Positions 5,087 through 63,830 of a stretch of DNA of 64,000 nucleotides are shown here, in pieces. Each line of letters starts with the position of its first letter. The stretch's first letter is position 1. The translations under genes and the position numbers were made by a program. The stretch comes from Liolophura sinensis (lineage: Eukaryota > Mollusca > Polyplacophora > Chitonida > Chitonidae). The DNA is taken from NCBI RefSeq assembly GCF_032854445.1, contig NC_088295.1, forward strand, positions 93,613,805-93,677,804. Direction: 5' to 3'. A model generated the notes under the pieces. That model saw only the letters and a program-made list of their open reading frames with translations. It ran no database searches and was not told the origin of the DNA.

Positions 5087-5262
5087 ATAAACCGTCCCAC
5101 CCGGAGGGTTACCCCATCTTTGAGGATGTCCAGGTAGATCGGACAGGTAGGAACCGAGATGACGTGGTCGTCACGTGCAAAGTGAATGGATCCCCGGCTC
5201 CGACAGTAAACCTGTGGCGGGAAGTGACGGGCCCGGATGGCACCAAATACCAGAATGTCCGG
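5087..5262 (+). CDS. Exon D1a: first half of Ig domain 1
   Basis: Acceptor is tgctacag before 5087 (phase 1) and donor is CGG|GTGAGT at 5263 (phase 0). The peptide contains YPIFEDVQVDRTG, then VVVTCKVNGSPAP and VNLWREV: the B-strand cysteine, the G-x-P-x-P turn and the C-strand tryptophan of an I-set Ig domain. It closely resembles exon D2a (7802-7980), so the two domains are recent duplicates. The codon for the residue before DKP.. is completed by an exon upstream of the visible gene. An antisense ORF over the same stretch is a shadow. Confidence 0.9.
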
Positions 5263-5960
5263 GTGAGTACCAGAGAGTCTGGGTCTCTGAATATGTGGTA
5301 AAGCGTCCAGGTGAGTACACGAGTGTATATTTTGGTGCCAGAGCGTCCAGGTGAGTGCCTGATTTGGAGCGTTCGGGTGAGTACACGAGTGCCTGATTAG
5401 TTGCCAGAGTGTCCGGATGGATGCTAGTGCTTGGATGGGTACTAGGGTGACGAAAGACACATTGTAAGTGCTAATGTGTCTGATGGGTACTGCAGTATTT
5501 GGACCAGTACCTAAGCATCCGGGTCAGTACTAGAAGACCAGGATGGGTGCCGGAGCATCCGGGGGATTACTATAATATCTGGATGACTACCAGGTTGCGC
5601 GAGTGAGTAGCAGAATGCCTGGAAGCGTACCAAAGTACGCTGGTGAGTGCTAGAGTGTGTGGATGGGTACCGGAGTGTTTGGGTGAGCACCACAATGCCT
5701 GGAAGGGTACCAAAAGTACGCTGGTGAGTGCTAGAGTGTGTGAATTGGTACCGGAGTATCTAGGTGAGCACCACAATGCCTGGGTACCAAGGTATGTTGG
5801 TGAGTGCTAGTGTGTGGATGGGTACCGGAGTGTCTGGGTGAGCTCCACAATGTCCGGAGGGTACTAGGATGCCCGAATGAGTGCTGCAACATGTTTATTA
5901 GTGTCAGAACGTCCGGGTGAGAGCCAAAGTGCCCTGGTCTGTGCTAGGGTGACCAAGTAA
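5255..5960. repeat. Degenerate repeat seeded at the D1a splice donor
   Basis: The exon-intron junction of D1a (AATGTCCGG|GTGAGTACCAGAG) recurs after the exon as agcgtccaggtgagtac, gcgttcgggtgagtacacg, gtgtctgggtgagc and similar, at irregular 30-45 bp spacing, decaying towards 5960. Several copies keep a GTGAGT donor hexamer. The intron then continues to 6285 with no further feature seen. Confidence 0.75.
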
Positions 5961-6285
5961 GGACTAATGTGTCTGATGGATACCGGAGTGTTCGAATCAT
6001 TGCATACCGTTGGTCGCACTTTGTTCTAGATAACGCGCATTTATGGCAAGGTAAGATCTAAACCACACTACAGAAGTGAACCATCATGTTGAAGACTAGA
6101 GATTCTGGATGACAGAGACTTCTGGGTTGAGTGTAGAATATATCATCATAAGATTTGGAAATCGTATTTGTGTGAATGTAAAGATTCGTTTATTCCTCAT
6201 GTATGTTGTCTTAAACTCTCTGAAGTTTATGTTTTAATAGTTGGTTGAGTGTGTATGACGCTGACCTACATGTAAACGCTTTCAG

Positions 6286-6446
6286 ACTGGAGGCCGATAC
6301 ACCGTAGAGCAGAACCAATACGCGGACTACTCGGTGGCGAGAGCAGTGATCCGGTCCCGCCTCATCAAGTGACGCCGGTACATACCTGTGCTCCGCCCAG
6401 AACTCCCACGGATCTATCCGCCAGGAGTTTTCTCTAACCATCGGGG
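6286..6446 (+). CDS. Exon D1b: second half of Ig domain 1, one-base frameshift
   Basis: Acceptor gctttcag precedes 6286 (phase 0) and donor GGGG|GTACGT follows at 6447 (phase 1). It reads TGGRYTVEQNQYADYSVARA in the entry frame. From the CCC at 6356-6358 the Ig frame moves by one base and gives SSDAGTYLCSAQNSHGSI, then RQEFSLTIG. The exon is 161 nt, whereas intact sister exons (8492-8651, 13269-13428, 19008-19167) are 160 nt. The extra C therefore looks like a one-base insertion, and the unshifted frame stops at TGA just after. Assembly error or a genuine lesion are both possible. Confidence 0.8.
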
Positions 6447-6714
6447 GTACGTTAACCACTTCAAGGCATACAGAGAAGGGGGAACAGCTGGTGAACAGAC
6501 ATCCGTATACCAGTCATCAACAACTATAAAAGTGCATAAAGTAATGGACCTAAATTAAAAGTTAAGACGGATTCATGCAAGGAGAAACAGTCGACAGTTT
6601 TCCTGTGTCACGAAAAGTCACAAGGAATGCTATAGGCGAATGGATTAAATCAGTATCCAAATTATGTACCATGTAAGCTTCTAGGTAGTTGTTGATGAGC
6701 TGTATGTATGTATG

Positions 6715-6745
6715 ACAGGGGTTTAACGTCGTACTTAACTTGATT
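6715..6745 (-). mobile_element. SINE family B tail fragment
   Basis: The motif ggggtttaacgtcgtactta is the reverse complement of the 3' tail seen in the longer copies at 41195-41480 and 41938-42275. Only the last ~30 bp remain. Confidence 0.55.
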
Positions 6746-6925
6746 AGTTGTCAAAATATGTATATGAGTTGTGATTTGAATGTAACGGTTCATATGTGCA
6801 AGGTGATGGTCTTGTTCAATACGATGCAGATATAGCCTCTCGTCCCAGGGTGGAAAATCATGGACAGACTAAGAGGAAATATGTACATTCCAAACGCAAG
6901 ACTCGTCAGTACATTGTCTGCCAAA

Positions 6926-7085
6926 AATTTATTTATTTACTTAATTGGTCTTTTACGCCGTGTTCAAGAATATTTCGCTTATACGACAGCGGCCAGCATT
7001 ATGGTGGGCAGAAACCAGACAGTTCCCCGGGGAAACCCACGACCATACGCAGGTTACTGACAGACCTTCCCACGTACGCCTGTCC
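6926..7085 (-). mobile_element. SINE family A, 5'-truncated copy
   Basis: Reverse-complement copy of the tRNA-derived SINE best preserved at 43703-43972. The shared core includes ttttacgccgtgttcaagaa, ggccagcattatggtgggc and cacgaccatacgcagg. The tRNA head is missing, as expected for truncated LINE-mobilised SINEs. Confidence 0.85.
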
Positions 7086-7246
7086 TAATAAGAATAGATC
7101 ACAGGTGTGTTCGGGGTATCATAGCACAGAGAGATATTTCCGCTGATGCGTTGCTTTTGGAATGGATAATGTATATGTCTAATGGTAAATTGTAAAATTA
7201 TGATTAAACCAATATTGTTATTAATTTCGAACTTTGTCTTTTACAG

Positions 7247-7297
7247 GTGAATCCATCCAAGGGACAAGTCAAGATTCACAACAAAATCAAGTTGAAA
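7247..7297 (+). CDS. Linker exon L1 (51 nt)
   Basis: Acceptor gtcttttacag precedes it and donor A|GTATGT follows at 7298. It is phase 1 on both sides, and the split codons join D1b (G+GT) to D2a (A+CT). It encodes a Gln/Ser-rich, low-complexity 17-residue spacer (GESIQGTSQDSQQNQVE) with no Ig features. Similar symmetric linkers occur at 40750, 51705, 57857 and 62983. A symmetric exon can be skipped without changing the frame. Confidence 0.65.
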
Positions 7298-7801
7298 GTA
7301 TGTAATATCGAACAGAATCGCAGTCTGAAAACTTGAATGAAAAAATGTTCATTTGGTTCTAATAGCTATCTTTTTCATTTTATATGAAATTGTGTGATTT
7401 CCTTTTTAAGCGACACTATATCTACAAGCGCTGTCGATGTGATAGCCGATTAATTCATTCGGATATTCTTGAGTTCGGCGTATAACAACAATAAATTAAA
7501 TAAATTTATTCATTCCCTGCCCTTTTAACCCCAATAGGTGTGTATGTAAATCAATTTATACAGTAACATGTAATCACGTCTTATTCGTATGGCTGTTGGC
7601 GTGTGGCGAATCAGGAATTCGAATGTTTATTTATCACTGGTGTCACACGCCGTACCCGTAATTAAGAATATTTCACGTATACGACGACGACTGATAACAT
7701 TATGGTAGGAGGATATATACCCATTTTTCTGCATTTAACAGAATGGGTCAAGCCTATAGTTCATATAATCCAATGTGTAATGATCGGGTATCCTATTTTA
7801 G
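7298..7801. other. Intron 3, with a SINE fragment
   Basis: About 500 bp of AT-rich intron. The only recognisable content is a diverged family-A SINE tail at about 7625-7713, reverse orientation (shared motifs: cacgccgtacc, aagaatatttcacg). Confidence 0.6.
7625..7713 (-). mobile_element. SINE family A tail fragment
   Basis: Diverged reverse-oriented tail. It is alignable to 43703-43800 through cacgccgtacc, agaatatttcacgtatacga and acattatggt. No head and no clear target duplication are seen. Confidence 0.6.
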
Positions 7802-7980
7802 CTATTGCACCCAATCGCCCCGAGGGCTACCCTAAGTTTGAGGACGTCCAGGTGGACCGGACAGGTGTTAGCCGAGCTGACGTCGTGGTTACCTGTAGAG
7901 TGAGTGGCTTTCCCGCACCTAACGTCCACCTCTGGCGAGAAGTAAAGACGGACGGACAGACGGACTATCAGCGCATACGG
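7802..7980 (+). CDS. Exon D2a: first half of Ig domain 2
   Basis: Acceptor tcctattttag (phase 1) and donor CGG|GTAAAC at 7981 (phase 0). It contains EGYPKFEDVQVDRTG, VVVTCRVSGFPAP and VHLWREV, nearly matching D1a residue for residue and placing the conserved Cys and Trp. The charged segment after the Trp (KTDGQTDYQRIR) matches the C'-D region of D1a. Confidence 0.92.
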
Positions 7981-8491
7981 GTAAACCAGCAGTCTCCTCG
8001 CTAACTTATATGTCCGACATATAACATCTGCCAATACGTTGTAAACCATTCTCGCACAGTCTCAATTGGGGGTTTAAGTCAGACGGGTTGCCGTTTTTAC
8101 TATAAAATCCATCTGTTTTACTGCATTCCTCCTCCAGGGGACAGTGATCTGTGGCACCATCCAATTTTCCTTTCCCAGCTGCATGGGATGCTCTTCTGTA
8201 TAACAATGTACTGAAAACTATCCCATGGGAATGAACCAGAAATCCCTCGTTCACCTAGCATGAGATGGTTTTCTGTGCTTCCATCCATCTATCTTTATTC
8301 AGCTACAATACACGTTTCCTTTCTCTTTTTTGATGAGATCGTTATCTGACTTACGACCGCCGTCGGCTTTTTTCTCGTCCAAAGCGTCCTTGTCTGTGTT
8401 ACCATCTTCTGTTAACTATAGACAGGATAGCCCTATCCGTGAAGTAACTGTTGCCATGTTGTCCCTGCGGCATGTTTTTGTTGATTGGCAG

Positions 8492-8651
8492 ACTGATGGG
8501 CGCATATTTGTTGATCAACGGAAGTACGACCGCTACACGCTTCTGCGCGGTATTATTCGGGGAGCCACATCGGCAGACGCCGGCATCTACCTCTGCTCGG
8601 CAGACAATAGCCTGGGCTCACTACGGCAGCAGTTTAGACTAACTCTTGGAG
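8492..8651 (+). CDS. Exon D2b: second half of Ig domain 2
   Basis: Acceptor tgttgattggcag precedes TDGRIFVDQRK. Donor GGAG|GTACGT lies at 8652. It is exactly 160 nt, phase 0 to phase 1. The E-F region is SADAGIYLCSADNSLGSL, followed by RQQFRLTLGG. The D-x-G-x-Y-x-C motif supplies the second disulfide cysteine. An open frame continues upstream to about 8330, but the acceptor and alignment to sister exons set the start here. Confidence 0.92.
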
Positions 8652-8710
8652 GTACGTAACGCAACTGGCCAACTGATAAAGAGTGCATATAACATAGTGT
8701 TTTCTGATAT

Positions 8711-8763
8711 CACCAGGCAGGATAACAAGACAACAGCTGTCATGATAACAGGACACCACCACT
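8711..8763. repeat. Inverted copy of a downstream minisatellite segment
   Basis: This stretch (beginning tcaccaggcaggataacaag) is the reverse complement of about 8913-8965 in the following array, nearly base for base, including the tcctgacagctgttgtcttg block. The two arms lie about 150 bp apart. Confidence 0.85.
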
Positions 8764-8799
8764 GCGACGCATTTACTTCAAAAGTTAGTCAGTTCTACC

Positions 8800-9592
8800 A
8801 GTTAAGTGCCTTCATCCTGCCTGGTGGTGTCTTGTTATCCTGACACGTGTTGCCGTGTTATACTGCATGATGGTGTCCTGTTATCCTGTCTGGTGGTGTC
8901 CTGTTATCCTACCTGGTGGTGTCCTGTTATCCTGACAGCTGTTGTCTTGTTATCCTGCCTGGTGATGTCCTGTTATCTTGCCTGGTGTTTCCCTTTTATC
9001 CTGCCCGGTTATGTCTTGTTATCCTGGTTGGTGTTGTCCTGTTATACAACTCGGTGGTGTCTTGTTACCCTGAATGCTGTTGTCTTATCCTGCCTCTTGT
9101 AGTCCTGTTATCTTGTTATCCTGCCTGGTGGTGTCTTGTTATTCTGCCTGGTTATATCCTGTTATCCGGCCTGGTGGTATCCTGTTATCCCGCCCCTTGT
9201 TGTCCTCCCATTGGTAACCTGTTATTCTGCCAGATGGTGTCCTCTTATCCTGCCTAGTGGTGTCTTGCTATCCTGCTTGGTGGTGTTCTGTTATCCTGCT
9301 TAGTGGTCCTATTATCCTGCCTGGTGGTGTCCTGTTACCCTGAATAGTGTTGTCTTGTCCTGCCTCTTGTTGTCCTGTTATCCTGTTTGGTGGTGTCCTG
9401 TTATCCTGTCTGGTGGTGTCTTGCCATCCTACCTGGTGGTGTCCTGTTATGCTTCCCAGTAGTGTCTTGTTATCCTGCCTGGTGGTGTTATGTCATCCTG
9501 TCTGGTCGTGTCCTGTTATCCTGCGTAGGGGTGTCCTCTTATCCTGCCCGGTTGTGTCTGTTGTCCTACCTGGTGGTGTAAGATTTACCTGT
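8800..9592. repeat. About 23-bp minisatellite, roughly 33 copies
   Basis: Imperfect tandem repeat of cctggtggtgtcctgttatc plus ctg. Variants include cccggttatgtcttgttatc and gacagctgttgtcttgttat. It lies in the intron after D2b. The short valine/leucine/serine-rich ORFs here are repeat translations. Confidence 0.9.
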
Positions 9593-9899
9593 AATATTGA
9601 CCTATATTGAGCTGTAATGTTGACCTGTATTCATACTGACCTCTATTGTCCTGTAATACTGACCAGTTTTAACCCCTGATACTGACCTGTATTTTCCTGT
9701 AATATTGGCCTGTGTTGTCCTGTAATACTTGCCTGTGGTGTCTTGTAATACTGTCCTGTGTTGTCCTGTAATATTGTCCTTTGTTGTCCTGTAATACTGA
9801 CCTGTGTTGTCCTGTAATACTGACCTGTGTTGTCCTGTAAAACTGACCTGTGTTGCCTTGTAATACTGACCTGTGTTGTGAAATACTGGCTTGCATTGC
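9593..9899. repeat. 23-bp minisatellite running into the gap
   Basis: Unit ctgtgttgtcctgtaatact plus gac, with about 13 visible copies. It shares its 23-bp period and the gtcctgt core with the preceding array, so it is probably a diverged continuation. It is cut by the N run, so its true length is unknown. Confidence 0.88.
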
Positions 9900-10099
9900 N
9901 NNNNNNNNNNNNNNNNNNNNNNNNNNNNNNNNNNNNNNNNNNNNNNNNNNNNNNNNNNNNNNNNNNNNNNNNNNNNNNNNNNNNNNNNNNNNNNNNNNNN
10001 NNNNNNNNNNNNNNNNNNNNNNNNNNNNNNNNNNNNNNNNNNNNNNNNNNNNNNNNNNNNNNNNNNNNNNNNNNNNNNNNNNNNNNNNNNNNNNNNNNN
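9900..10099. other. Assembly gap, 200 N
   Basis: Exactly 200 unknown bases. The left flank is tandem repeat and the right flank is the acceptor of a second-half Ig exon. Since D2b ends in phase 1 and 10114 begins in phase 0, the missing first-half exon of that domain is expected inside the gap. The gap size is probably nominal. Confidence 0.95.
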
Positions 10100-10113
10100 A
10101 TCTGTTCACACAG

Positions 10114-10273
10114 GGAAGTGACCGTGTCACCTTGCAAAAGCGACAAGAAGGGGACAGGGCTTTGTAACCGTTACCATACGACGGGTGACAGCCGGAGTAC
10201 GCAGGCTCCTATCTATGTGCCCGCCATGAACGCTAGAGGAACCGTTAGCAAGAGTTCAACCTCACTGTTCAAG
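10114..10273 (+). CDS. Exon Dx-b: second half of an Ig domain, frame broken
   Basis: Acceptor gttcacacag precedes 10114 and donor AAG|GTATTG is at 10274. The length is 160 nt, the family standard. In the entry frame it gives GSDRVTLQKRQEGDRA, then stops, later AGSYLCAR and QEFNLTVQG. The intervening Ig pieces VTVTIRRVTA and NARGTV lie in neighbouring frames. At least four one-base shifts cancel out, leaving length and splice sites intact. This could be poor base calls at a contig end or a decayed exon. Its first-half partner would lie in the gap. Confidence 0.6.
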
Positions 10274-11588
10274 GTATTGTTTTCAGTGTTCATCAGTTAT
10301 CAACGTTATATAAGAGGCGCCGTCAAGCAAATGCTCTTTAGCATTGCGTGCTGTCGCTCCTTGCCTTCGTTGCGGAAATCACCATTTTAAATTAAATCCC
10401 GCCCAAATGCTCTTTAATTCCTTTTTCAAGCATTTATCCCTGATCATATTAGATTTACTATAAATACAATCACAGTGTTCAATGTACTGCGATGTATTAG
10501 TTAATTATAAGATAGTTTGTCTATTTAAATACCATTTAATTTTATTTTAACCATTTTTAATAATAACGTTATGGATCTGGTTATTTGAATTTGAAAAGGC
10601 GAATGGGATTATCCGTCTATTTTTAGTAACATGAGCCAAGTGAAAAACAATAAACAGCTTTATTATAGAAACAGACGAAAAAAGAATTGATTGCTTGGGC
10701 AAAATTGGCATTGTGCTAGTTTAGTAGCATGAGTTGGAAGGCAGGAATAAATAATTTAGCTATTTATGGCAACATAGTGAGTTGTTTTGGTTGCTGGCTA
10801 AAAACATCATAGTTGTGTGCTTGGTTGGGGGCGATGATCAAAGGGCCACGTTTGTTGTCGTGACAGCACGTGGGGTTTGTGACAGTCAGTGCCAGGTAGA
10901 TCTTCCACATCTTTTACCTAACGCGATAGCGAGTATACGGAATCCTGGATATGCCTGATCGTGGCAATGACAGTTTAAGACAGCATGTTTTCCACCAGAA
11001 GCGTGATTAGCTCCTTCACACATATATGTACTGAATAAACGTAGCCTACCGTGTTCCAGCAAATACAAACATTGTCATTGTTGCCACTCTGCAAAATGAA
11101 AATAGTTTGTCTTCTGTTTAGTCTAAAAACTTATTGTTTACCACTTGGTTCGTGTTCCTGAGAAAAACTTTTCCTTTCTTACCAGTGAATAAAAAAGTAT
11201 ATATTTTATCATGATGTTGCCAGAAATTGTTGAAATCAAAATAGTTAGTCTTTATCTTACTTTAAATAAACAAATAATTTTCTCTGTCACACAAATGTTT
11301 AAGGAAGAGATGGAAATGTCCCCCTAGGGGCTCCGTACTTTGTTGTTCTTCAGATAAACCTGATCACCGTAAAATGGCCGAAGAATTTCGAACGAGCGCT
11401 TATACTGAACGTGGAGTTATAGACCTAAAACTTTCTAGATGTGTGACTTTCAATCAGACAAACGTAGACATAAACCACAAGATTAATGAACATGTAGGCA
11501 TACGCTAATAGGGTATCTTAATGTCGACAACTTCGTGTGATGTTATCCTAACGTGATCCCGATCAACTGCTTCCCCCTGACACTGTAG
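10274..11588. other. Intron after Dx-b, no gene seen
   Basis: AT-rich intron. I see no repeat array, SINE or convincing exon. A possible acceptor (ttgttcttcag before 11354) opens a short frame beginning DKPDHRK, but it lacks Ig landmarks, so it is not annotated. Confidence 0.6.
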
Positions 11589-11752
11589 AGGGCTCCACAT
11601 CCAAACAGGCGGGTCTGGCTATTGATGGAGTGACCGTCGACTCCACGGGGGAGAATAACCAAGATGTGACGATAACGTGTACGGCGACGGGTAACCCGGT
11701 GCCTAGCCTGAGGCTGTGGCAATACAAGAACGGCAACTACCAGGTGGTACAG
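11589..11752 (+). CDS. Exon D3a: first half of Ig domain 3
   Basis: Acceptor ctgacactgtag (phase 1) and donor CAG|GTAAGA at 11753 (phase 0). It encodes GLAIDGVTVDSTG, then VTITCTATGNPVPSLRLW, with the B-strand Cys, the GNPVP turn and the C-strand Trp in the same spacing as D1a and D2a. Confidence 0.9.
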
Positions 11753-11811
11753 GTAAGACAGCAAGTCATCGGATAACAAGCCCTTCTCCAAGACACTAGT
11801 CGCTGAGCAAT

Positions 11812-11862
11812 ATCTATTTATTTTTTTCATTTGTGTTTTACGCCATACTCAAGAATATTTGA
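11812..11862 (-). mobile_element. SINE family A tail scrap
   Basis: About 50 bp: cgccatactcaagaatattt preceded by a T/A-rich stretch. It is the extreme 3' tail in reverse orientation. Confidence 0.6.
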
Positions 11863-11929
11863 CTTGCTAAGCAATAAGTGAATATCCTAGAAAAACACGG
11901 CAGAGATATATAACATCCATCGTCTCTGC

Positions 11930-12815
11930 CATCATGTCATTGATGGGGTGATGGATGGTTTTGCCGTCTTGGATTAGGTCATTGGTGCGGTAATGGATGG
12001 TATTGCTATCTTTAAATGTTTCATTAATACGGTAATGGACGGTATTGCCGTCTTGGATTAGGTGATTGATACTGTAATGGATGGTCTTTAATGACGTCAC
12101 TGATGCTGTAGTGGATGGTATTGCTGTTTTGATAAAGTCATTGATGCTGTAGTGGATGGTATTGCCGTCTTTGATGAGGTCATTGATGCTGTAGTGGATG
12201 GTATCGCCGTCCTTGATGAGGTCATTGATGCTGTAGTGGATGCTATCACCATCTTTGATTAGGTCATTGATGCTGTAGTGGATGGTATCGCCGTCTTTGA
12301 TGAGGTCATTGATGCTGTAGTGGATGGTATTGCCGTCCTTGATTAGATCATGGATACTGCAGTGGATGGTATCGCCGTCTTTGATGAGGTCATTGATGCT
12401 TTAGTGGATGGTATCGCCGTCTTTGATGAGGTCATTGATGCTGTAGTGGATGGTATTGCCGTCTTTGATGAGGTCATTGATGCTGTAGTGGATGGTATCG
12501 CCGTCTTTGATGAGGTCATTGATGCTTTAGTGGATGGTATCGCCGTCTTTGATGAGGTCATTGATGCTGTAGTGGATGGTATCGCCGTCTTTGATGAGGT
12601 CATTGATGCTGTAGTGGATGATATTGCCGTTCTTGATTAGGCCATTGATGCTGTAGTGGATGGTATTGCCGTCTTTGATTAGGTCATTGATGCTGTTGTT
12701 GATGGAATTGCCGTCTTTGATGAGGTACTGCCGTTGCGGTAGTGGATGGTATTGTCTTCTTTGATTAGGTCACTGATGCGGTAGTGGATGGTATTGACGT
12801 CTTTGATATCAGTCC
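11930..12815. repeat. 42-bp minisatellite, about 20 copies
   Basis: Unit gatgctgtagtggatggtat plus cgccgtctttgatgaggtca and tt. The 42-bp period equals 14 codons, so both strands stay open for up to 96 codons (DAVVDGIAVFDEVI repeated on the plus strand). The outer copies at 11930-12100 are a diverged subtype (ggtaatggacggtattgccg) that also occurs, inverted, at 24340-24525. Confidence 0.93.
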
Positions 12816-13268
12816 TTGACGAGTTTTCACTAAGACAAGCAAGAGTATACGTATACATGTACGAATGGAATGTGTGTAAAAAGGGAGGAGATTACATACA
12901 AAAGCGATATCACGCCAAAATATTCCACAAACTTATTTTATAGTCTTATAGTCATTCTTTTTTTCACATATTTACATATCAAAATTCAGAGAAGATAATC
13001 CCTGATTAAGCAACTTCGAAATATAAACTTTGATTTAAGGTTGGTTTTTAAATCAAACGGATTTTGTGAGTATATATGCTTAGATTTCATTCGGTTTAAT
13101 TTAATACTTTGAGTCAGTTATTAAACTTGAGTTCGTTGCAAAGAATCTAAGGATGTATAAGTAGATTTAATTGATTTTCTTGTAAAATCTATAATAATAT
13201 CATAACAGAATATTGGTATGTCATGTAACCACCTCAAAATTTGCCTATCTTCGTGATTGTCTTTTCAG

Positions 13269-13428: not shown

Positions 13429-13779
13429 GTACGCACCTGTCCTCGGCCATGTCCTCTCCTCGGCGGAAACATCCTCAGTCTTCTGCTTAAACAGTTTCTG
13501 CACCTATACACGTTCTCTTTCCAGGAATTCTTTGTTAACTAAAACTATTTCAAGTAAACGATAATTTTTAATCGAATGTAAGTTAAAAGAAACCTAAAAG
13601 TAAAACATACTGCTTGTCGGCAAAACAAAATTGAACGCCAGTCTTCATTACAAGTGACAACCATAAATCGTCTTCTTGTCGCAAAACCATGCCCCTTGGA
13701 TTTTCTAAAAAAATATAGAATCACTTCAATAAGTATTTGTTGTCTTTTTCCCATATTCTGTGTTGCAGATTATCATTTG

Positions 13780-55642: not shown

Positions 55643-57156
55643 GTGGGTTAACCGTGTTACACTCAACTTCTGGGCTCAATCGCACTTAGGAGGTTCACCA
55701 CAGAAACTGTACACGTTAGCTCTAGAAAGTTTCGAGGAAGTAAAAGATTAGTGCCCCTTAATATCGGAGCTATTATCAGATCACCTGTCAGATTACAAAT
55801 CAAATTTTACACACACATTGACCTACCATCTTGAATATGTGTCCGATCAGCTTTCAGATTACAAATTAAATTTTACACATATATTGACCTACCACCTTGA
55901 GTGTAATTTGCTGAAAGAAACTAAGTGTCCAACGGTATCAACCGTCACCTTATTGGTAGTAAAACCGCTGCGCCCAACCGGAAACTATAACATATATGAG
56001 CTGGTGAGATCTCCCAAAGGAGCCTGCCGTGCAGATGTCTGCAGATGTGCAGATTTCGTAGGTATCAAAGTTGTACCGAATGAGTTTGTCCCTTTCTATT
56101 AGCCCCTGAGCGGCCTCCGTGGCCTAGTGGTTGGCGTGCTAGCGCAGCAGAATGCCCCAAAACCTTCTCACCAAGGCGCACGTTGTGAGTTCGTCCAGCT
56201 CATGGTGGCTTCCTCTCTGATCGTACATGGTAAGGTTAATGAGATTTTACACACGTAACACGACTGGAAGGGCGACAAGCACATAACACTGCTTTTGAAA
56301 TGAGGTGGTAAATCCTGTAATTCTCTGTCCATGCAGCGGCAGAGAATGGTTAAAGATACAATAGGACTGGGTTGCTGTTTATGTGTTGATTTCTACGTGC
56401 ATTTTTACGTCACTTTTTCCCACGGTCACGTGGCTTTTGCATTGGTTAAAGAGTGAATGGAGAGGTGAAAAATTTAAAATAAAGCGTAAGCACGATGTTT
56501 TTCACAGTATCCTCTGTCATGTGTCAACCATGAGTGTTCTGCCATCACGTGTGCGCGACTCCTACATACCTCAGTGTTATATGTTCATTTCGAAAAGGAC
56601 TGGATTCGAACTTCCATCATACAGACTTAGGGTCCGTAGGCGGATGCCTGTAACACCCGACCATTTGAGTTGTTGTAACAGAATGTGTTTCCAAGACGTG
56701 TTTGAGACAGACGAGCATACTGAGGGTTGGTTGCGCATTTGCATGTGTTACGTGTGTTTGTCACGTGGACTACATCTGAGTCTCCTCCATATCAGGGCAG
56801 CATCATTCAGGGAAGCATGAATAAACTGACGTAAGTAGTGAAGTAGAAAGCTACACGTGAACACAGCAACCCAGTGTTTATAACGGCCGCTACAGTGAAG
56901 AGCAACCAGGGTCTAGGGTGTTACGCCAAGATATTACAAAATTTGCACTTATTTACCTATCACTGTCACTAGTAGCAATTCGCTATTAGGATAAATGTAC
57001 AATTTACAAAAGTTTACATTTTACAAGTGTATATATGTAACAGCAGATGTTGCCTTGCAAATAATCCTGATGGATACCACTTAAAGGCCGAAGTACAAAT
57101 GTTTGCCAACTATGCATTTAAGTCTTTCTGGGAGTGACCTGTGTTCTTTTACAACG
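55643..57156. other. D12 intron, first part
   Basis: 1.5 kb. It contains a duplicated sentence-like stretch (tttcagattacaaat and tgacctaccaccttga at 55790-55905) and a SINE head at 56103-56236. The 145-codon ORF at 56383-56820 has no recognisable domain. Confidence 0.55.
56103..56236 (+). mobile_element. SINE family A, 5' part only
   Basis: The tRNA-like head is well kept: ggcctccgtggcctagtggt, tggcgtgctagcgcagc and a B-box-like gtgagttcgtccagctcat. It then breaks off after tctgatcgtacatgg. 3'-truncated or interrupted. Confidence 0.8.
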
Positions 57157-57461
57157 CCTTTCTCATTGGTACTCAGTCGACTCAAGATCATGAGATATAC
57201 ATTTCTCATTGGTATTCAGTCGGCTCAAGATCATGAGATATACATTTCTCATTGGTATTCAGTCCACTCAAGATCATGAGATATACATTTCTCATTGGTA
57301 TTCAGTCCACTCAAGATCATGAGATATACATTTCTCATTGGTATTCAGTCCACTCAAGATCATGAGATATACATTTCTCATTGGTATTCAGTCCACTCAA
57401 GATCATGAGATATACATTTCTCATTGGTATTCAGTCCACTCAAGATCATGAGATATACATT
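57157..57461. repeat. 43-bp repeat carrying the D12b acceptor, about 7 copies
   Basis: Units start at 57201, 57244, 57287, 57330, 57373 and 57416, exactly 43 bp apart, with a diverged copy before. Each holds a full 3' splice site (tttctcattggtattcag) plus the first 27 nt of exon D12b. The last copy is the real exon start. Confidence 0.95.
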
Positions 57462-57588
57462 CAGCATATAGACGGCACCTCTCGACTTACCTTAACTTTG
57501 GCTGCTTTGACCACTGAGGATCTGGGGACATACCAATGCACGGCTGACAACTACCTTGGGCAGTCCAAGAAGACACTACAAGTGACAG
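57435..57588 (+). CDS. Exon D12b: second half of Ig domain 12
   Basis: Acceptor cattggtattcag, then STQDHEIYIQHIDGTSRLTL, TTEDLGTYQCTADNYLGQSK, TLQVTG. Donor ACAG|GTAACG is at 57589. It is 154 nt, phase 0 to phase 1, matching sister exons, and this fixes which of the repeated acceptors is used. Any upstream copy would bring a TGA within 20 codons. Confidence 0.88.
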
Positions 57589-57856
57589 GTAACGAGTCAT
57601 ACTCAGAGCCAAATCTACGGCTTTTGGGAAACAACCTATTGGAGCAAAACTGATTCCTCAAATTGATTTACAATTCTAATTCGCTCATATTATGTATTGC
57701 TTCGAGTAGAATAATTTCATTCGCGTCGTCTTCAGAACAGAGTTTTAAAAAACCTTAAAATGACTTGCACAATTCTGTCAAGTGAATTAGTGTTTGCCAT
57801 GAAGTCATAAACAAAGATATACGAATACTTTAAATGCAAGACATTTCATTCTTAAG
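57589..57856. other. Intron before linker L4
   Basis: Short intron, nothing else seen. Confidence 0.5.
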
Positions 57857-57994
57857 GTAACTTTAAGGACCAATCTGCCGACGATAACAGTGAAGAACGG
57901 ACGCTAGTCTCCCCTGTCCCACTGCTTACCACTACAGAGACGACAACCCAGATGTACTTTTTTGACGTCCGAAACACAAACTGTCGCCGACATG
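57857..57994 (+). CDS. Linker exon L4 (138 nt)
   Basis: Phase 1 on both sides. Acceptor catttcattcttaag (weak AAG ending) and donor CATG|GTACGT at 57995. It encodes a Ser/Thr-rich spacer (SADDNSEERTLVSPVPLLTT, TETTTQ), then MYFFDVRNTNCRRHG with one Cys. Joins G+GT on both sides. Mucin-like composition suggests a flexible stalk (inference). Confidence 0.7.
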
Positions 57995-58004
57995 GTACGT
58001 CTGT

Positions 58005-58385
58005 TTTGTCTCTAGAGCGTCTTTAATGTCCCTCTGGCGTCTCTAATGTCACTCCGGTGTCTATAATGACCCTCCAGCCTCTACAATGTCCCTCGGGCGT
58101 CTGCAATGTCCCTCCAGCGTCTCTAATCTCCGGCCTCTGCAATGTCCCTCCAACGTCTTTAATTTCCCTGCGGCGTCTGTTATATCCCTACGGCCTCTGT
58201 AATATCCCTACGGCCTCTGTAATGTCCTTCCGGCGTCCGTAATGAACCTCCAGCGTCCGCAATGTCCTCTGGCGTATGTAATGTCTATCCAGCGTCTGTA
58301 ATGTCCCTCCCGCGCCTGTGATGTCCTTCCAGCATCTCTAATGTCCCTTCAGCGTCTCTAATGTCCCTAAAGCCTCTGCAAATGT
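58005..58385. repeat. About 20-bp minisatellite
   Basis: Unit gcgtctctaatgtccctcca, imperfect, about 18 copies, directly after the L4 donor. Confidence 0.88.
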
Positions 58386-58540
58386 TCCTCCTCCTGGAAT
58401 GACCAGTTCAAAATTCATTTATTCAACTTAGACGGTTGATTGTTTCGTTTTGTAATACTAGTAGTATGAGAAGAGTTTGAAGCCATAGGCATCACGAAAA
58501 CTCGCGCAACGTAACGCTGTGCCCTTTGTTCTCCGATCAG

Positions 58541-58703
58541 GTCAAAATATACAAGTGAAACCATCGACCGAGTTAGCAGCAAAGTTGGGCGACGGACTGG
58601 TATTAACGTGTGATTACTCTGGGTATGACCCAGTTTTCATCCAGTCCCTCACCTGGTACACCCCAGAAGGACAGCCCTTTAAGGATGCCAACACTAGCTC
58701 AAG
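58541..58703 (+). CDS. Exon D13a: first half of Ig domain 13
   Basis: Acceptor ttctccgatcag (phase 1) and donor AAG|GTAAGC at 58704. The exon ends in phase 2, unlike the earlier domains. It encodes IQVKPSTELAAKLGDGLVLT, CDYSGYDPVFIQSLTWYTPE: the first Cys and a Trp 16 residues later. A different Ig sub-type starts here. Confidence 0.87.
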
Positions 58704-59060
58704 GTAAGCGATACTTCACATGTACTCACCGAAGATGATTTTGTTGTGTCCAGGTGTGATCCTACAAGGAGGCCAAAACTAACTCCTGGTAAGTCATATT
58801 TCAGATATGCTATCAAGTAAGACTACTTTGTAGTGTCCCGATGTGATGCTACAAGGAGGCCAAAACTAGCTCCTGGTAAGTCATATTTCAGATATGCTAT
58901 CAAGTAAGACTACTGTGTAGTATCCCGATGTGATGCTACAAGGAGGCCAAAACTAGTTCCTGGTAGGTCATATTTCAGATATGCTATCAAGTAAGACTAC
59001 TTTGTAGTGTCCCGATATGATGCTACAAGGCCAATATCCCCCAGCTCCTTGTAAGTGATA
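58685..59060. repeat. 87-bp repeat seeded at the D13a donor, 3-4 copies
   Basis: Copies of gccaaaactagctcctggta, agtcatatttcagatatgct and the rest recur at 58794, 58881 and 58968, exactly 87 bp apart. They mirror the exon end GCCAACACTAGCTCAAG|GTAAGC. Confidence 0.9.
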
Positions 59061-59501
59061 CTTCAAGGAGGAATTTGTAGTGTCAGGTGTAGGATCTTTG
59101 TAGGAGATCCTCTTTCATGGCTTCTATCTGCATTAGCTACTAATTCCATGTCATTTTCACACTGTTTCTGCATTGGTTATAAATGATATACATGTAGCTA
59201 GCTGTCCTGGGCGTATCATTTGCAGGTTATCGGATAGACTCTTCTTCACGTGTCAGTCCTATCATCTTAATTAAACTGAGGTTGAGAAGCGGGATTTGAC
59301 ATCACATAAACTACATGTATAGCCCGCTCTCTCCAGATATAGATCACGAATACCTCCGTTAAAAAGAAAACAAATACATCCATCAAGCCTGGATCTCTTT
59401 GAACGCAATGTGTATTTGGATGTTATTTGAAATAAATATACCTGTAATTCTGTGACCATTCATAAACCATGACGCTTTAACGTGTACTTCCTTGTTGCCA
59501 G

Positions 59502-59641
59502 GGTTTCGGTGATGTCTGAAGGCGAGTATAGAGTATTGTTGTTCATAAAGGCTGTCCGTCAACAGGATGCTGGGCTTTGGACGTGCCACGCAGTTCTGGA
59601 CGGTCAGATGAGATGTGGTACGGTTAGTCTGACTGTATGGA
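59502..59641 (+). CDS. Exon D13b: second half of Ig domain 13
   Basis: Acceptor cttccttgttgccag and donor TGGA|GTAAGT at 59642. It is 140 nt, phase 2 to phase 1. It encodes RVSVMSEGEYRVLLFIKAVR, QQDAGLWTCHAVLDGQMRCG and TVSLTVW. The D-A-G-x-W-x-C motif replaces the more usual D-x-G-x-Y-x-C, and there is an extra Cys. Confidence 0.87.
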
Positions 59642-61775
59642 GTAAGTATTAACCAGTTACTACACAAATACCTGTGTGAAGTAAATGTAAGTATGCATCA
59701 CTCACTGCACAAATACTTGTGTGGAGTAAGTCTTCGTCACCAACTGTATAAATACCTGTGTGGAGTAAATGTAAGTATGCATCACTCACTGCACAAATAC
59801 TTGTGTGGAGTAAGTCTTCGTCACCAACTGTATAAATACCTGTGTGGAGTAAATGTAAGTATGCATCACTCACTGCACAAATACTTGTGTGGAGTAAGTC
59901 TTCGTCACCAACTGTATAAATACCTGTGTGGAGTAAATGTAAGTATGCATCATTAACTACACAAATAGTTGTGTGAAGTAAGTGTTCGTCACAAACTGTA
60001 TAAATATCTGTTTCGAGTAAGTCTTTGTCACCAACTGAATAAATACCGGTGAGCAGAAAATGTAAGTATGCAGTCCTAAAAGTAGAAATGCCGGTGTGGA
60101 GTAAGTGTCCGTCACTAACTGAATAAATACCCGTATGGACTAAGTGTCCGTCATCAACTGTATCATTACCTCTGTGAAATAAGTGTCTGTCATAAACTGT
60201 ATAATTATCCACTGTGTGGAGTAAACCTCCGTCACTAACTGTATAAATTCCTCTATGGGGTATGTCTCCATCACTAACTGTATAAGTACCGGTTTGAAGT
60301 AAGTGTCCATCACTAACTGTATAAATCCTTGCATGGAGTAAGCCTCCGTCACTAATTGTATAAATTCCTGTATGGGGTATGTCTCCGTCACTAACTGTAT
60401 AAGTGCCTGTTTGAAGTAAGTGTTCATCACTAACTGTATAAATACCCGTGTGGAGTAAGCCTCCGTCACTAATTGTATAAATTCCTGTATGGGGTATGTC
60501 TCCGTCACTAACTGTATAAGTACCGGTTTGAAGTAAGTGTCCATCACTAACTGTATAAATCCTTGCATGGAGTAAGCCTCCGTCACTAACTGTATAAATT
60601 CCTCTATGGGGTATGTCTCCGTCACTAACTGTATAAGTACCGGTTTGAAGTAAGTGTCCATCACTAACTGTATAAATCCTTGCGTGGAGTAAGCCTCCGT
60701 CACTAAGTGTATAAATTCCTGTATGGGGTATGTCTCCGTCACTAACTAAATAAATATCAGTGTGGAGTAAGCCTTCGTCACTAAGTGTATAAATGTGTGG
60801 AGTAAATGTAGGCATGCATTACTAAGAAGTGACGGTGTGGGGTAAGTGTCCGTCACTAACTGAAATAATACCGGTGTGGAGGAAGTCTCCGTGACTAACT
60901 CATCAATCCTTGTGTGGAGGAAGTCTTCGTCTCTAACTATATATATACCTGGGTGGAGTATGTCTCCCTCACTAACTGTATAAATCCCTCTTTTGAGTAA
61001 GCCTCCATCACTAAACTTTATAAATACCCGTGTGAAGTAAATGTATGTGCGGAATAAGTGTGGAGTAAGTGTCCATCACCAGCTGTATAAATACCTGTGA
61101 GGGGCCTTCGTGGCTAAGTTGGTTAGCGCGCTAGCGCAGCGCAATGACTCGGGAGCCTCTCACCAATGCGGTCGCTGTGAGTTCAAGCCCAGCTCATGCT
61201 GGCCTCTCCGGCCGTACGTGGGAAGGTCTGGCAACAACCTGCGGGTGGTCGTGGGTTTCCCTCCGGGCTCTACCCGGCTTCCACCCACCATAATGGTGGC
61301 CGCCGTCGTATAAGTGATGAAATATTCTTGAGTACGGCTAAGTATGTAAATACCTGTGTGGGGGTAAGTCTTCGTGACTTACTGTATAAAAAACCTGTGT
61401 GGAGTAAGTGTCCGTCTCTAACTGTATAAATACCTGTATGGAGTAAGTGTCCGTCACTAATTGTATAATTACCTGTGTGGAGTAAGTCTTCGTCGTTAAC
61501 TGTATAATTACCTGTGTGGAGTAAGTGTCCGTCTCTAACTGTATAAATACCTGTGTGGAGTAAGTGTCCGTCACTAATTGTATAATTACCTGTGTGGAGT
61601 AAGTCTTCGTCCGTTAACTGTATAATTACCTGTGTGGAGTAAAGTGTCCGTCCTCTAACTGTATAAATACCTGTGTGGAGTAAGTGTCCGTCACTAATTG
61701 TATAATTACCTGTGTGGAGTAAGTCTTCGTCGTTAACTGTATAATTACCTGTGTGGAGTAAGTCTCCGCCAGACA
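59630..61775. repeat. 39-bp minisatellite seeded at the D13b donor, about 48 copies
   Basis: Unit taagtgtccgtcactaactg, tataaatacctgtgtggag. The first copy is exon end CTGTATGGA plus GTAAGT. At 59681-59935 an 84-bp block (gtaaatgtaagtatgcatca...) repeats exactly. The array is split by a SINE at 61100-61346. The period is 13 codons, hence antisense ORFs of up to 388 codons. Confidence 0.95.
61100..61346 (+). mobile_element. SINE family A inserted in the 39-bp array
   Basis: Full element in plus orientation: ggccttcgtggctaagttgg, ttagcgcgctagcgcagcg (A-box region), gtgagttcaagcccagctca (B-box), then ggccgccgtcgtataagtga and agtacggcta. It is flanked by taaatacctgtg at 61088-61099 and 61347-61358. 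The array resumes directly after. Confidence 0.92.
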
Positions 61776-61879
61776 TATCACTCTAAAGATTTATCACTCT
61801 TAAGATTTTATAGATTAATAATGCGCCTGTCCTATCATCATAATTGTTATATCGTATAATCGTATCTGTATATTCACAG

Positions 61880-62017
61880 AGGACATCACCTTCGTAAGTT
61901 TGCCGCTGTCAGTGAATGGTGTATCAGGACAGGATGTCGTCCCTCATGTGCTCCGTTGGACGGTGCGCCTCTACCGGATCTGTCGTGGTCTCGCAATGGG
62001 AGACCAACTTCCTCGAG
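61880..62017 (+). CDS. Exon D14a: first half of Ig domain 14, middle out of frame
   Basis: Acceptor tatattcacag (phase 1) and donor CGAG|GTGACA at 62018. The start reads DITFVSLPLSVNGVSGQDVV. The Ig continuation SCAPLDGAPLPDLSWSRNGR is one base out, from about 61941. Taken from its start, the exon ends in phase 1, which is the phase D14b needs. So the disturbance is either two cancelling indels or base-call errors. The Cys and Trp are visible only in the shifted frame. Confidence 0.65.
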
Positions 62018-62233
62018 GTGACAAACTGTTGATAAAGACTATGGTCATTATACAAATAGTGCCAGACTTTTAAATTATTATATGGACATATATTATGGGC
62101 ACCGTTTATGTGCTATTTAATCAAGAGAGGCCCCAATTTAATCGCTTGTATTAATAAGATGATGTTCATTGAACATTTTGATCCGCTCATACCTCACGTT
62201 TCTACTGACCCACCGTTTCTGTACTTTTTTCAG

Positions 62234-62371
62234 ATGTCCGTTATATTTATACACATCATGGTTTACTTATTCACGATCTGGAGAAAGGGGACGCTGGGAA
62301 GTATCTGTGTGAAGCTAAAGTGTCGATCACGGGTCGGTATGACGCCAGAGAAATCTCTCTCTATGTCGACG
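62234..62371 (+). CDS. Exon D14b: second half of Ig domain 14
   Basis: Acceptor ctgtacttttttcag and donor GACG|GTAAAT at 62372. In the Ig frame it gives VRYIYTHHGLLIHDLEKGDA, GKYLCEAKVSITGRYDAREI and ends SLYVDG. It starts in phase 1 and ends in phase 1, which differs from D13b (phase 2 entry). The open frames at 62108-62389 are in other registers. Confidence 0.75.
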
Positions 62372-62519
62372 GTAAATAAGACTGGATAATACACACCCAC
62401 CACTTCATTAATAGACAGTCTTAATGTGGTTTCCATATCTATTATCTGGCTATACATTTTGGCTGAATGATTTGATCTTTAACTTTTAACTATATGTGTA
62501 TAACATAATAAAACAATAA

Positions 62520-62703
62520 CATCGGCTCATGCTGGCTCCCTCTCTGGGCGTAAGTGGGAAGGTCTGACAACAACTTGCGGATGGTCGTGGGTTTCACCTG
62601 GTCTCTGCCAGGTGTCCTCGAACCATAATGCTGGCTGCCGTCGTACTTGAGATACACTTGAGTACAGCATAAAACACCAATCAAATTTATAAATCAATAA
62701 GTA
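62520..62703 (+). mobile_element. SINE family A, 5'-truncated
   Basis: Starts at ggctcatgctggctccctct. It continues gtaagtgggaaggtctgac, ggatggtcgtgggtttcacc, aaccataatgctggctgccg and ends tacagcataaaacaccaatc plus an AT-rich tail. A short aataacat occurs on both sides (possible target duplication). Confidence 0.85.
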
Positions 62704-62789
62704 AATAAATAACATTGTCTGATTCTCCACCAACATACACATTTGTACACCTTCGTTACTTTTAACGACACAGACTTCGATGAAACTGT

Positions 62790-62840
62790 GGCGTGAAGGT
62801 GTAGTGTGGCGTGAAGGTGTAGTGTGACGTGAAGGTGTAG
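62790..62840. repeat. Short 20-bp repeat gtggcgtgaaggtgtagt
   Basis: Three copies of gtgaaggtgtagtgtggc. Confidence 0.8.
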
Positions 62841-62982
62841 TTATAATCACATCACATGTACCTAAAGTGACCAAGAATTTTTACAAATGGGAAACAGTTT
62901 GACATTCTTGTCACCGTAAACACTGTTTTGTCAAACAGTTTCCAACCCGTTGTTCTCATCGCCGTGTATTCTGTGTACCCAG

Positions 62983-63084
62983 GTGAGCTGGGGGGTGATA
63001 ACCAAGGTCAGACGGACAATACACGGGTCACGAGGCCAAAGAACTCTACGACAGCAGGATGTGCAAATAGTGGGCAAATCACTG
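62983..63084 (+). CDS. Candidate linker exon L5 (102 nt)
   Basis: Acceptor ttctgtgtacccag and donor ACTG|GTACAT at 63085. It is phase 1 on both sides and joins G+GT to D14b. It encodes GELGGDNQGQTDNTRVTRPK, NSTTAGCANSG. Like L4 it is Asn/Thr-rich with one Cys. It is supported only by position, phase and composition. Confidence 0.5.
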
Positions 63085-63665
63085 GTACATGTACAGCAGT
63101 AGTATTGGCCGATATCCCAGTCCTCGTAATTGTCAGATTCGTGCAACTCCTGGCACGTTCTTGCACATTACTGATGATTACTGGCAAATTGATTAATACG
63201 ATCTTCTTCCTGAGGAGACCTCTGGTGAGACAGAAAAGCCCACGGCATGGAGAATACAAGCAGAGCAACGAGGGACTAAGCGATAGTTGGCAAATCGTCA
63301 CACATAACCTTTGAATTCCGGGCCATTTGTCAGTTTGCCTCAGTTAGACATCTTTGTCATCCATGTCCTTGTAAATGTTTAAATAGTTGCCAGTTGCAAT
63401 GCACAATAGCTTAAGCAGAAGTGGGTACCACAAATGTAAGTTGTTTTAATAACGATGTATTAGGTGACACTGGACTGATATTGGTGTGCACTAGTTTTTA
63501 CCAAGGTGTAGCTTATTTTCACAAACACTGGGTAGCTATAAACGCAGAAACTATATATAAATTTTCAAATTACATAATTTAAGAAGGTCAATGGCTTCTC
63601 TTCAAGGATGCCCCACAAGATGTCCTTCATTGTCTAATCAAGCCTCGTATGCTCGTTTGCTGCAG
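63085..63665. other. Intron after L5
   Basis: No element recognised. Short ORFs on both strands cross it without a domain signature. Confidence 0.5.
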
Positions 63666-63830
63666 TGCCCATACTGTCGTTGATACCAGCCAGTCACATG
63701 ACCCTCTATAGTGGGCGTGGCCTGGTGCTCCACGTGTCGAGCTCGTCGAACATCCCCGTGTGATTCCGTGCGGTTGACATGGACAGACCCTTACCGATCA
63801 GACCATAGCCAACACAGACACATCACTCAG
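63666..63830 (+). CDS. Candidate exon D15a, frame broken
   Basis: Acceptor cgtttgctgcag (phase 1) and donor CTCAG|GTAGTG at 63831. Pieces in three frames resemble D13a: SGRGLVLH, then CRARRTSPCDSVRLTWTDPY (Cys, then Trp 14 residues on) and finally ANTDTSLR, echoing D13a's DANTSSR. At least two one-base shifts are needed. Degenerate exon or poor sequence. The second half lies beyond the window or in the last 170 bp. Confidence 0.4.

Follow-up and report, generated by a model that had tools for sequence, protein, structure and literature searches.

Boundary-spanning minisatellites recur at the splice junctions of a hemicentin-like immunoglobulin gene in the chiton Liolophura sinensis

Introduction

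Tandem repeats of an intron/exon boundary, named mirages, have previously been reported from amphioxus (PMC3902484), and it is from amphioxus genes that the open-licence literature we searched reports such boundary-spanning arrays. Expansion of exon-intron boundary minisatellites that alters gene structure is also found among the variable internal tandem repeats of human segmental-duplication genes, but that report places half of these repeats in coding sequence and ties the boundary cases to novel introns in recent paralogs (PMC2812944). CeRep25B of C. elegans is likewise an intronic minisatellite lying near splicing decisions and linked to alternative splicing; unlike the arrays described below, however, it is described as a satellite found at many places with regulatory motifs, and not as a derivative of the local junction (PMC4039745). 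In the chiton (mollusc) Liolophura sinensis, arrays of the mirage kind, whose unit contains part of an exon together with the splice site next to it, occur in a hemicentin-like immunoglobulin (Ig) gene and in unrelated genes.

Results

The window, the whole stretch of 64,000 nt that was analysed, lies within the hemicentin-like gene, and all features described in it are on the forward strand. Our model of the gene, based on splice sites and alternating Ig phases, has 32 exons numbered e1 to e33 (5087..62371); e5 is missing from it, and an N gap is probably its place. The reading frame is broken in two exons, and e13 to e33 match Pfam I-set (2.2e-115). The public Liolophura sinensis model P0001 matches e20 to e33 and differs from ours in its first exon, in one extra exon (49997-50101), which begins inside the last unit of the e24 donor array, and in an earlier start of e28, at 57435; two pieces of its coding sequence are held by array units. 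A segmental duplication of about 10 kb has made e20, e21, and e24 copies of e13, e14, and e17. About half of the gene's intronic sequence consists of arrays (66,438 of 124,835 nt, in 70 arrays), and Pfam gave no recognition of mobile-element remnants.

The first-pass annotation had claimed that at least ten introns contain arrays holding the adjacent splice site and exon sequence, on either side, and this is borne out: 11 of the 31 modelled window introns carry an array whose unit combines an exon end (about 8 to 38 nt of exon sequence) with the adjoining splice site, nine at donors and two at acceptors. Eight of these cases are independent, the segmental copies at e20, e21, and e24 being set aside. 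We relied on alignments, as TRF boundaries by themselves lacked precision: the e1 case was put in the wrong place, the e13 case was overlooked, and one intron was divided.

Donor-side arrays follow e1, e13, e14, e17, e20, e21, e24, e30, and e31. The donor of e1 lies after 5262, and its array (5248..5950, end approximate; TRF row 5603-5864) has a period of about 20/40, with some 13 to 15 exon nt plus GTGAGT in each unit; of 23 copies at 60% or more, 13 have the GT. After e13, alignment and k-mer tests revealed two more diverged copies of the exon end and donor within the intron (30485..30600). The e14 array (30881..32399) has a 60-bp unit with 38 exon nt in about 25 copies, with GT in 24/24, and was recovered by TRF, k-mers, and alignment. 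TRF, 20-mers, and alignment agree on the e17 array (35099..38400), in which a 30-bp unit with 12 exon nt is repeated about 110 times, with GT in 81/102; a second array detected by TRF in the same intron (38458..39998) has a 25-bp unit that is similar to the final 24 nt of e17 but lacks the donor, and its 44 copies average 73% to the exon end. The segmental copies of the e13, e14, and e17 cases are, respectively, the e20 array (42887..43034; TRF, 30-bp unit, one copy of the spanning 20-mer, GT in 5/7), the e21 array (44752..46636; 60-bp unit, about 31 copies, GT in 29/30), and the e24 array (49810..50007; 30-bp unit, GT in 5/5), the last two being supported by TRF, 20-mers, and alignment. The e30 array (58676..59030; TRF, alignment, and 40-mers) has an 87-bp unit, of which about 24 nt are exonic, and three further copies, all with GT (3/3). 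In that of e31 (59632..61768; TRF, 20-mers, and alignment), a 39-bp unit with about 8 to 10 exon nt is repeated about 53 times, a SINE-like insert breaking up the array, and GT is present in 27/29. In P0001, the donors used for e20, e21, e24, e30, and e31 are the exon-proximal ones.

On the acceptor side, the e27 array (54787..55488; TRF), whose acceptor lies before 55479, has a 39-bp unit that includes TATCAGCGGT of the exon start, and the spanning 20-mer occurs three times. A 43-bp array adjoins the e28 acceptor (57159..57461; TRF, P0001, and alignment); because the public model starts the exon at 57435, the last unit of this array is partly coding, and e28 counts as an acceptor case only if that start is correct.

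Several arrays were left uncounted. Positions 1..4757 cover the 3' part of an array of 51-bp units, 17.4 kb long in all (TRF, 20-mers), that starts 7 nt past the donor of the upstream exon at -12639 and whose unit may carry the junction. Two further arrays, in introns 7 and 11 of the seeding test, begin at donor position +1. A 20-bp array 12 nt past the e29 donor (58007..58391) was left off the junction list, since alignment gave no exon sequence in its unit. The TRF arrays in the window at 8814, 9577/9633, 11936, 13787, 16276, 17683, 20806, 24264, 24347, 26786, 28724, 29419, 33733, 40015, 50687, 51930, 58007 (the e29 array), 61776, and 62787 lie away from junctions or have no demonstrated junction.

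Across the gene's 80 introns we count 16 junction arrays (13 independent), 11 at donors and 5 at acceptors, so that both 5' and 3' boundaries are represented; five of the 16, again on both sides, lie beyond the 11 window introns. Random seeding predicts about 7.5. Under a uniform-seed model, donors are in clear excess (11 versus 3.8 expected, P 0.0006; 8 versus 3.7, P 0.025, minus segmental copies), whereas the acceptor excess is not significant (5 versus 3.8, P 0.33); for the window alone, the nine donor and two acceptor arrays compare with 1.0 expected per side. The junction list was curated by eye ahead of this test, which therefore carries some reader's freedom. The excess in the gene is thus about 2-fold and firm on the donor side only. 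The first-pass annotation had judged the pattern far from random, which was overstated: in introns this short, with arrays making up about half of their length, random seeding already yields several junction arrays. Array edges no more than 20 nt away from a donor number 12 against 4.1 expected (9 against 4.05 minus segmental copies), and those equally close to an acceptor 8 against 4.1.

The 20-mer, 40-mer, and donor-score tests are free of curation. Donor-spanning 20-mers (12 exon plus 8 intron nt) recur two or more times within the intron that they border at 9 of 80 donors, with 0.08 expected from other introns, and acceptor-spanning 20-mers recur at 1 of 80 (0.01 expected). Exon-only 40-mers exceed the 99.5% level of other introns on 7 of 80 donor sides (0.27 expected) and 2 of 80 acceptor sides (0.14 expected), whereas 40-mers from exon centres are copied into introns in 0/80 and 0/80 cases, which fits the purging of exon-internal events. 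Within the units of 77 arrays, donor-like sites on the gene strand versus the other strand number 20 versus 16 at scores of at least 6, 16 versus 8 at 7, 13 versus 3 at 8, and 9 versus 2 at 9 (shuffles: 9.9, 5.8, 2.5, and 1.1), so the strand bias is limited to strong sites.

Beyond this gene, at least 15 arrays of the donor octamer AGGTAAGT are present on chromosome 1 among the matches listed, with the array start visible in 11. In six of these 11 (L037, L038, L042, L043, L047, and L048), all in unrelated genes, the array start sits on a clear coding exon end, so the pattern extends beyond the window gene; in two more (L036 and L049) it probably does as well, and three (L040, L045, and L050) start away from junctions. 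The genome-wide rate check, run here on chromosome 1 as octamer versus control words, gave nearly equal array counts: 12 versus 10 up to 54.8 Mb for one control word, and 9 versus 7 and 6 up to 28.1 Mb for two, these being the stretches where both strands' match lists reach and look complete. Raw matches were 550 for the donor octamer versus 389, 520, and 378 for control words; raw triplet matches per word were 550/26,576, compared with 389/29,085 for the reversed control, and the second control word, GATGAAGT, gave the 520. Around control I-set exons elsewhere (five stretches, 14 exons, 18 arrays), a TRF array lay at the exon end in 0/14. In one of these stretches, L035, a junction recurs as two or three scattered copies. 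Array cover was 0 to 23% in eight further loci of 3 kb around telomere-like words (L001 to L008), which belonged to the array-cover control but were set aside from its summary, having been selected by that pattern.

Discussion

We consider it likely, with a probability of roughly two in three, that these arrays arose as minisatellites ordinarily do and were then tolerated, any bias toward junctions being modest at most. The arrays correspond to mirages, minisatellites whose unit straddles the exon-intron boundary. In a genome with many intronic minisatellites, short local duplications would arise largely at random; those internal to exons would be removed by selection, and those straddling an exon end would be tolerated, with splicing still using the exon-proximal site, as P0001 and the undisturbed exon phases suggest. 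The junction copies, falling into the intron, could then gain units through unequal exchange or slippage as other arrays do, and a modest further junction bias (about 2-fold, on the donor side) would be left over in the window gene. Since junction arrays exceed uniform seeding even minus segmental copies, tolerance alone may not suffice. Two observations also count against plain tolerance, namely, the P0001 coding pieces within array units and the better keeping of GT than of other columns in three of the four arrays measured.

The residual excess could instead be the product of splice-site-linked mutagenesis, with R-loops, transcription-linked breaks, or template switching raising the duplication rate at exon ends, a mechanism of the kind raised in the first-pass annotation; we regard it as possible but distinctly less probable. 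The donor-led excess in the gene, the clustering of array edges near donors and acceptors, the somewhat higher raw matches of the octamer than of its reversed control, and the six to eight junction starts among the 11 listed arrays with a visible start all point this way, and the last of these leaves room for a several-fold bias of true junctions. Against it, AGGTAAGT arrays are barely commoner than control-word arrays, which gives no support for a strong targeting of splice sites across the genome; GATGAAGT comes close to the octamer in raw matches, the acceptor excess is non-significant, and TRF arrays are absent from the ends of all 14 control exons, scattered copies in L035 notwithstanding. 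Retention of the arrays for a splicing function, as donor decoys, U1-binding platforms, or a source of longer exon forms, appears improbable. It would account for array copies that equal or beat the real donor score in several introns (48 sites versus 0.5 expected after e17; 18 at or above it versus 0.2 after e14), for the near-complete GT in the e14, e21, and e31 arrays, where GT is conserved more strongly than the remaining columns, and for the two array-derived coding pieces in P0001. Yet after e17, the window's largest such array, GT is kept no better than the rest, 3 of the 11 donor cases have no copy reaching the real donor's score, and the copies were picked by junction likeness, which itself favours a kept GT. 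A long in-frame exon extension was set aside because the reading frame closes 1 to 147 nt beyond the real donor in 11/11 donor cases.

That most of the arrays stem from one event spread by segmental duplication, or from assembly artefact, is very improbable and already largely refuted: the e13, e14, and e17 arrays are indeed paralogous to those of e20, e21, and e24, two exons have broken frames, there is one N gap, and the reads behind assembly GCA_032854445.1 (14x HiFi; mean, 8.3 kb [PMC11068029]) are shorter than the 17.4-kb array, but the units are unrelated across the eight independent window cases, and more cases exist both in other parts of the gene and in genes unrelated to it. Least credible of all is that the arrays mark introns newly gained through tandem AG|GT duplication in exons (Rogers-type intron gain). 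An intron farther upstream (-32610 to -31565) would suit that model, since 44-bp repeats fill nearly all of it, its 5' end bearing an array of donor type and its 3' end a pair of acceptor type, but Ig domains with and without arrays have identical intron positions and phases, indicating that the introns predate the arrays, and among this gene's array introns we found none at a new position derived from a within-exon duplication.

With so many cases in one chiton gene and more in unrelated chiton genes, mirages prove not to be confined to cephalochordates. Judging from P0001, array units may become part of coding exons. A stronger version, in which junctions, donors above all, are true hot spots of minisatellite birth across the chiton genome, units become coding, and exon ends and introns undergo constant reshaping, is rather doubtful. 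Counting genome-wide would separate tolerance from targeted mutation and is simple given annotation and RNA data (the assembly paper lists RNA reads of five tissue samples), and introns with dozens of near-identical donors offer a natural test of how the spliceosome chooses the right one.

The minisatellite of human IFI6 (6-16) reportedly has its unit at the boundary as well, and a shorter one. Its repeat units, like those of the chiton, provide several donor sites, but transcripts there use two of the downstream donors that the repeat supplies (Turri 1995, as cited in PMC4526556), whereas the strong donor-like copies of the chiton are read from sequence. The closest counterpart is still the mirages of amphioxus, in which boundary-straddling units likewise occur at both 5' and 3' intron ends, many copies keep the splice signal, and unit lengths (10 to 160 bp) overlap those of the chiton (20 to 90 bp) (PMC3902484). 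Regular splicing by RT-PCR and length instability are reported for amphioxus (PMC3902484), while the chiton arrays are known from one assembly; the chiton, a mollusc and not a cephalochordate, differs further in having many independent cases in one gene and up to about 110 copies in an array.

Gene structure and array density

The window (G000:C1:93613805-93677804, on chromosome 1) lies 2.8 Mb short of the end of a 96.4-Mb contig, and its exons are matched by a 759-aa hemicentin-2-like protein of Liolophura sinensis and carry I-set domains (Pfam, 2.2e-115). We modelled 32 exons and 31 introns within it on the + strand; phases alternate in the Ig-domain exon pairs, and spliced frames are open for e3-e4, e7-e12 and e13-e33 (exon labels of our model). 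The expected frame is not open in two Ig exons, e2 (6286-6446) and e6 (10114-10273), where decay and sequence error would look alike; e6 adjoins a 200-N gap (9900-10099) that probably contains the missing first half of its domain. A further 49 Ig-type exons were modelled in the flanking 140 kb, and the gene reaches far upstream and somewhat downstream. The set of 80 introns used below comes from the 81 exons of the window and this adjoining 140 kb, the downstream exons being only putatively of the same gene.

Tandem arrays account for 45% of the window and for 10-100% of each of 14 nearby stretches of 10 kb, compared with 0-14% of six other chromosome 1 stretches and 4-39% of five stretches around other Ig exons. 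One array, from -12631 to 4757 (negative positions lie upstream of the window, here in locus L015), comprises about 334 copies of a 51-bp unit over 17.4 kb; it starts 7 nt past a donor, occupies most of a 17.7-kb intron and exceeds the mean HiFi read. By eye, the stretches 11936-12807 and 24347-24518, in introns about 11.5 kb apart, are built of one 42-bp unit that is inverted in one relative to the other. At 23600-26650 both strands carry reverse-transcriptase-like remnants, which look Penelope-like and had no Pfam match; broken minus-strand reading frames at 47400-48330 resemble a Tc1/mariner transposase. Copies of a SINE-like element lie at 43700-43960 and 61100-61340, one of them interrupting the e31 array.

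Arrays carrying splice junctions

The first-pass annotation had counted at least ten introns with junction-carrying arrays, on either side of exons; both points hold, since such arrays occur in 11 of the 31 window introns (8 independent) and include donor and acceptor cases. Units made of exon end plus donor follow e1 (period about 20), e13 (about 30-36), e14 (60), e17 (30), e20 (30), e21 (60), e24 (30), e30 (87) and e31 (39), and units made of acceptor plus exon start precede e27 (39) and, given the public model's exon start, e28 (43). Beyond the window the region adds five cases. Two are at donors, with units of 62 bp (-40405) and 44 bp (-32610); three are at acceptors, with units of 90 bp (-63178) and 73 bp (67940) and, at -31565, two copies of 44 bp. 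The intron from -32610 to -31565 is filled over most of its length by the donor-type 44-bp array and ends in the acceptor-type duplication of equal length. The e13-e19 segment is duplicated as e20-e26, and within each of the pairs e13/e20, e14/e21 and e17/e24 the two arrays have a common junction; mean unit identity is 0.86 within e14, 0.83 within e21 and 0.72 between them, and the corresponding difference in e17/e24 is slight (0.81 and 0.74 within, 0.73 between).

Sites scoring at least as high as the real donor number 48 after e17 (0.5 expected), 18 after e14 (0.2) and 17 at -32610 (1.2), and in 3 of the 11 donor cases no copy matches the real donor's score. A stop codon follows 1-147 nt past the real donor in all 11. 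The GT is kept in 24/24 copies for e14, 29/30 for e21, 27/29 for e31, 81/102 for e17 and 13/23 for e1. Its columns are more conserved than the other columns of the unit in e14 (1.00), e21 (0.98) and e31 (0.93), against 0.81-0.92, and not more so in e17 (0.89 against 0.87-0.93). This conservation is inflated because copies were chosen for likeness to the junction, and the alignments give no clear sign of selection on the GT either way. The public gene model P0001 uses the exon-proximal donors; it has an added exon starting at 49997, within the last e24-array unit, and starts e28 at 57435, within the final unit of the 43-bp array. These array-derived coding pieces may be RNA-supported or merely predicted.

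Excess over chance within the gene

Three curation-free tests, of junction 20-mers, exon-only 40-mers and donor-like sites by strand, all point the same way. At 9/80 donors the junction-spanning 20-mer recurs two or more times within the same intron (0.08 expected from other introns), and at 1/80 acceptors likewise (0.01 expected). Exon-only 40-mers rise above the other introns' 99.5% level on 7 donor and 2 acceptor sides (0.27 and 0.14 expected), and exon-centre 40-mers never do (0/80 and 0/80). In the units of 77 arrays, donor-like sites scoring at least 8 number 13 on the gene strand against 3 on the other (shuffles, 2.5), and with weaker sites, scoring at least 6, the counts are 20 and 16.

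Under a model of uniform seeding with 70 arrays, arrays making up 66,438 of 124,835 intronic nt (about half), the 80 introns have 11 donor arrays against 3.8 expected (P 0.0006) and 5 acceptor arrays against 3.8 (P 0.33). When the segmental copies (e20, e21 and e24) were dropped, 8 donor (P 0.025) and 5 acceptor (P 0.32) arrays were left, with a combined P of 0.019; a pooled version, with 2.3 expected per side, gave P 0.002 for 8 donors and 0.07 for 5 acceptors. Counting array edges no more than 20 nt from a splice site, we find 12 at donors (4.1 expected; 9 and 4.05 once the copies are left out) and 8 at acceptors (4.1 expected), with no excess within 60 nt of acceptors (10 against 10.2). There is therefore a real excess of junction arrays, some 2-fold to 3-fold, which is firm on the donor side only. 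The window alone, the stretch where the pattern was first noticed, gives a much stronger excess than the 80 introns (9 donor and 2 acceptor arrays against 1.0 expected per side). The initial description of the pattern as far from random is right as to an excess but too strong, because in introns this short and about half array random seeding would already yield several junction arrays.

Junction arrays in other genes

A genome-wide search for a word occurring three times at 20-50 nt spacing, which counts overlapping matches rather than arrays, returned 550 matches for the donor octamer AGGTAAGT and 389 for the reversed word TGAATGGA, against 520 for the control GATGAAGT and 378 for its reverse. 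Among the matches listed, AGGTAAGT forms at least 15 arrays on chromosome 1, the last at 93.39 Mb; the minus-strand matches listed reach 54.8 Mb, and later arrays may be absent from this count. About 850 nt upstream of each of the 15 was examined, and the array start was not reached in four (L039, L041, L044 and L046). In six of the other 11 the array starts where an open coding exon ends, and its unit includes about 9-38 nt of that exon. These are L037 (RNA polymerase III subunit RPC1, E 3.7e-8), L038 (GH31, 3.5e-13), L042 (TOM70-like, E 0.0015), L047 (Core-2/I-branching enzyme, 1.4e-6), L043 and L048. Family searches with the last two exons gave no convincing family; they look ARFGEF/BIG-like and aldolase-like, respectively. 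Two junctions are probable, at L036 (polycystin-2-like exon, E 0.04, with a candidate donor position) and L049 (a short candidate exon), and the array starts of L040, L045 and L050 showed none.

Where the matches listed cover both strands of chromosome 1, AGGTAAGT forms 12 arrays and TGAATGGA 10 (to 54.8 Mb), or 9, 7 and 6 for AGGTAAGT, TGAATGGA and GATGAAGT (to 28.1 Mb). Given these near-equal counts and the single-word occurrences genome-wide (26,576 for AGGTAAGT, 29,085 for TGAATGGA), any enrichment of the octamer in arrays is slight at most. For its junction copies, enrichment turns on how many of the 26,576 sites are real donors, a share that is only bracketed, from assumed intron numbers: 8/11 junctions (6 clear plus 2 probable) would be unexpected at 20-34% (P 0.0003-0.01) and not unexpected at 51-61% (P 0.12-0.31).

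No array was found at the exon end of 14 control I-set exons elsewhere (0/14). One of them, an unrelated Ig exon in L035 (C13:17514001-17524000, at 8040-8290 as oriented), has two or three irregularly spaced downstream copies of its end and donor. They may be a mirage (the amphioxus term for a tandem repeat whose unit straddles an intron/exon boundary) at its beginning or in decay, overlooked by TRF. At C1:1904043-1905286, AGGTAAGT recurs about 10 times, every 126 nt, in a donor-octamer array whose unit is longer than the search pattern's limit.

Proposed origin and comparison with known systems

The best-supported origin of the junction arrays is random duplication followed by tolerance and minisatellite growth. 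Local duplications would arise at random in a minisatellite-prone genome; those straddling an exon end would be tolerated because splicing still uses the exon-proximal site, and we infer that they would subsequently grow as ordinary minisatellites. A modest additional bias towards donors may also act. The sequence itself shows the anatomy of the units, their recurrence on both sides of introns and in unrelated genes, and the lack of exon-centre copies.

Human IFI6 reportedly has a boundary repeat. Among human segmental duplications, boundary repeats are on record in PMC2812944. Compared by structure, the chiton arrays work like amphioxus mirages and fit their structural definition, as given in PMC3087553 and PMC3902484. 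Our searches of open-licence papers found no molluscan example of such arrays. We regard those of the chiton as a new occurrence of a known kind, unusually dense and in a phylum other than that of amphioxus.
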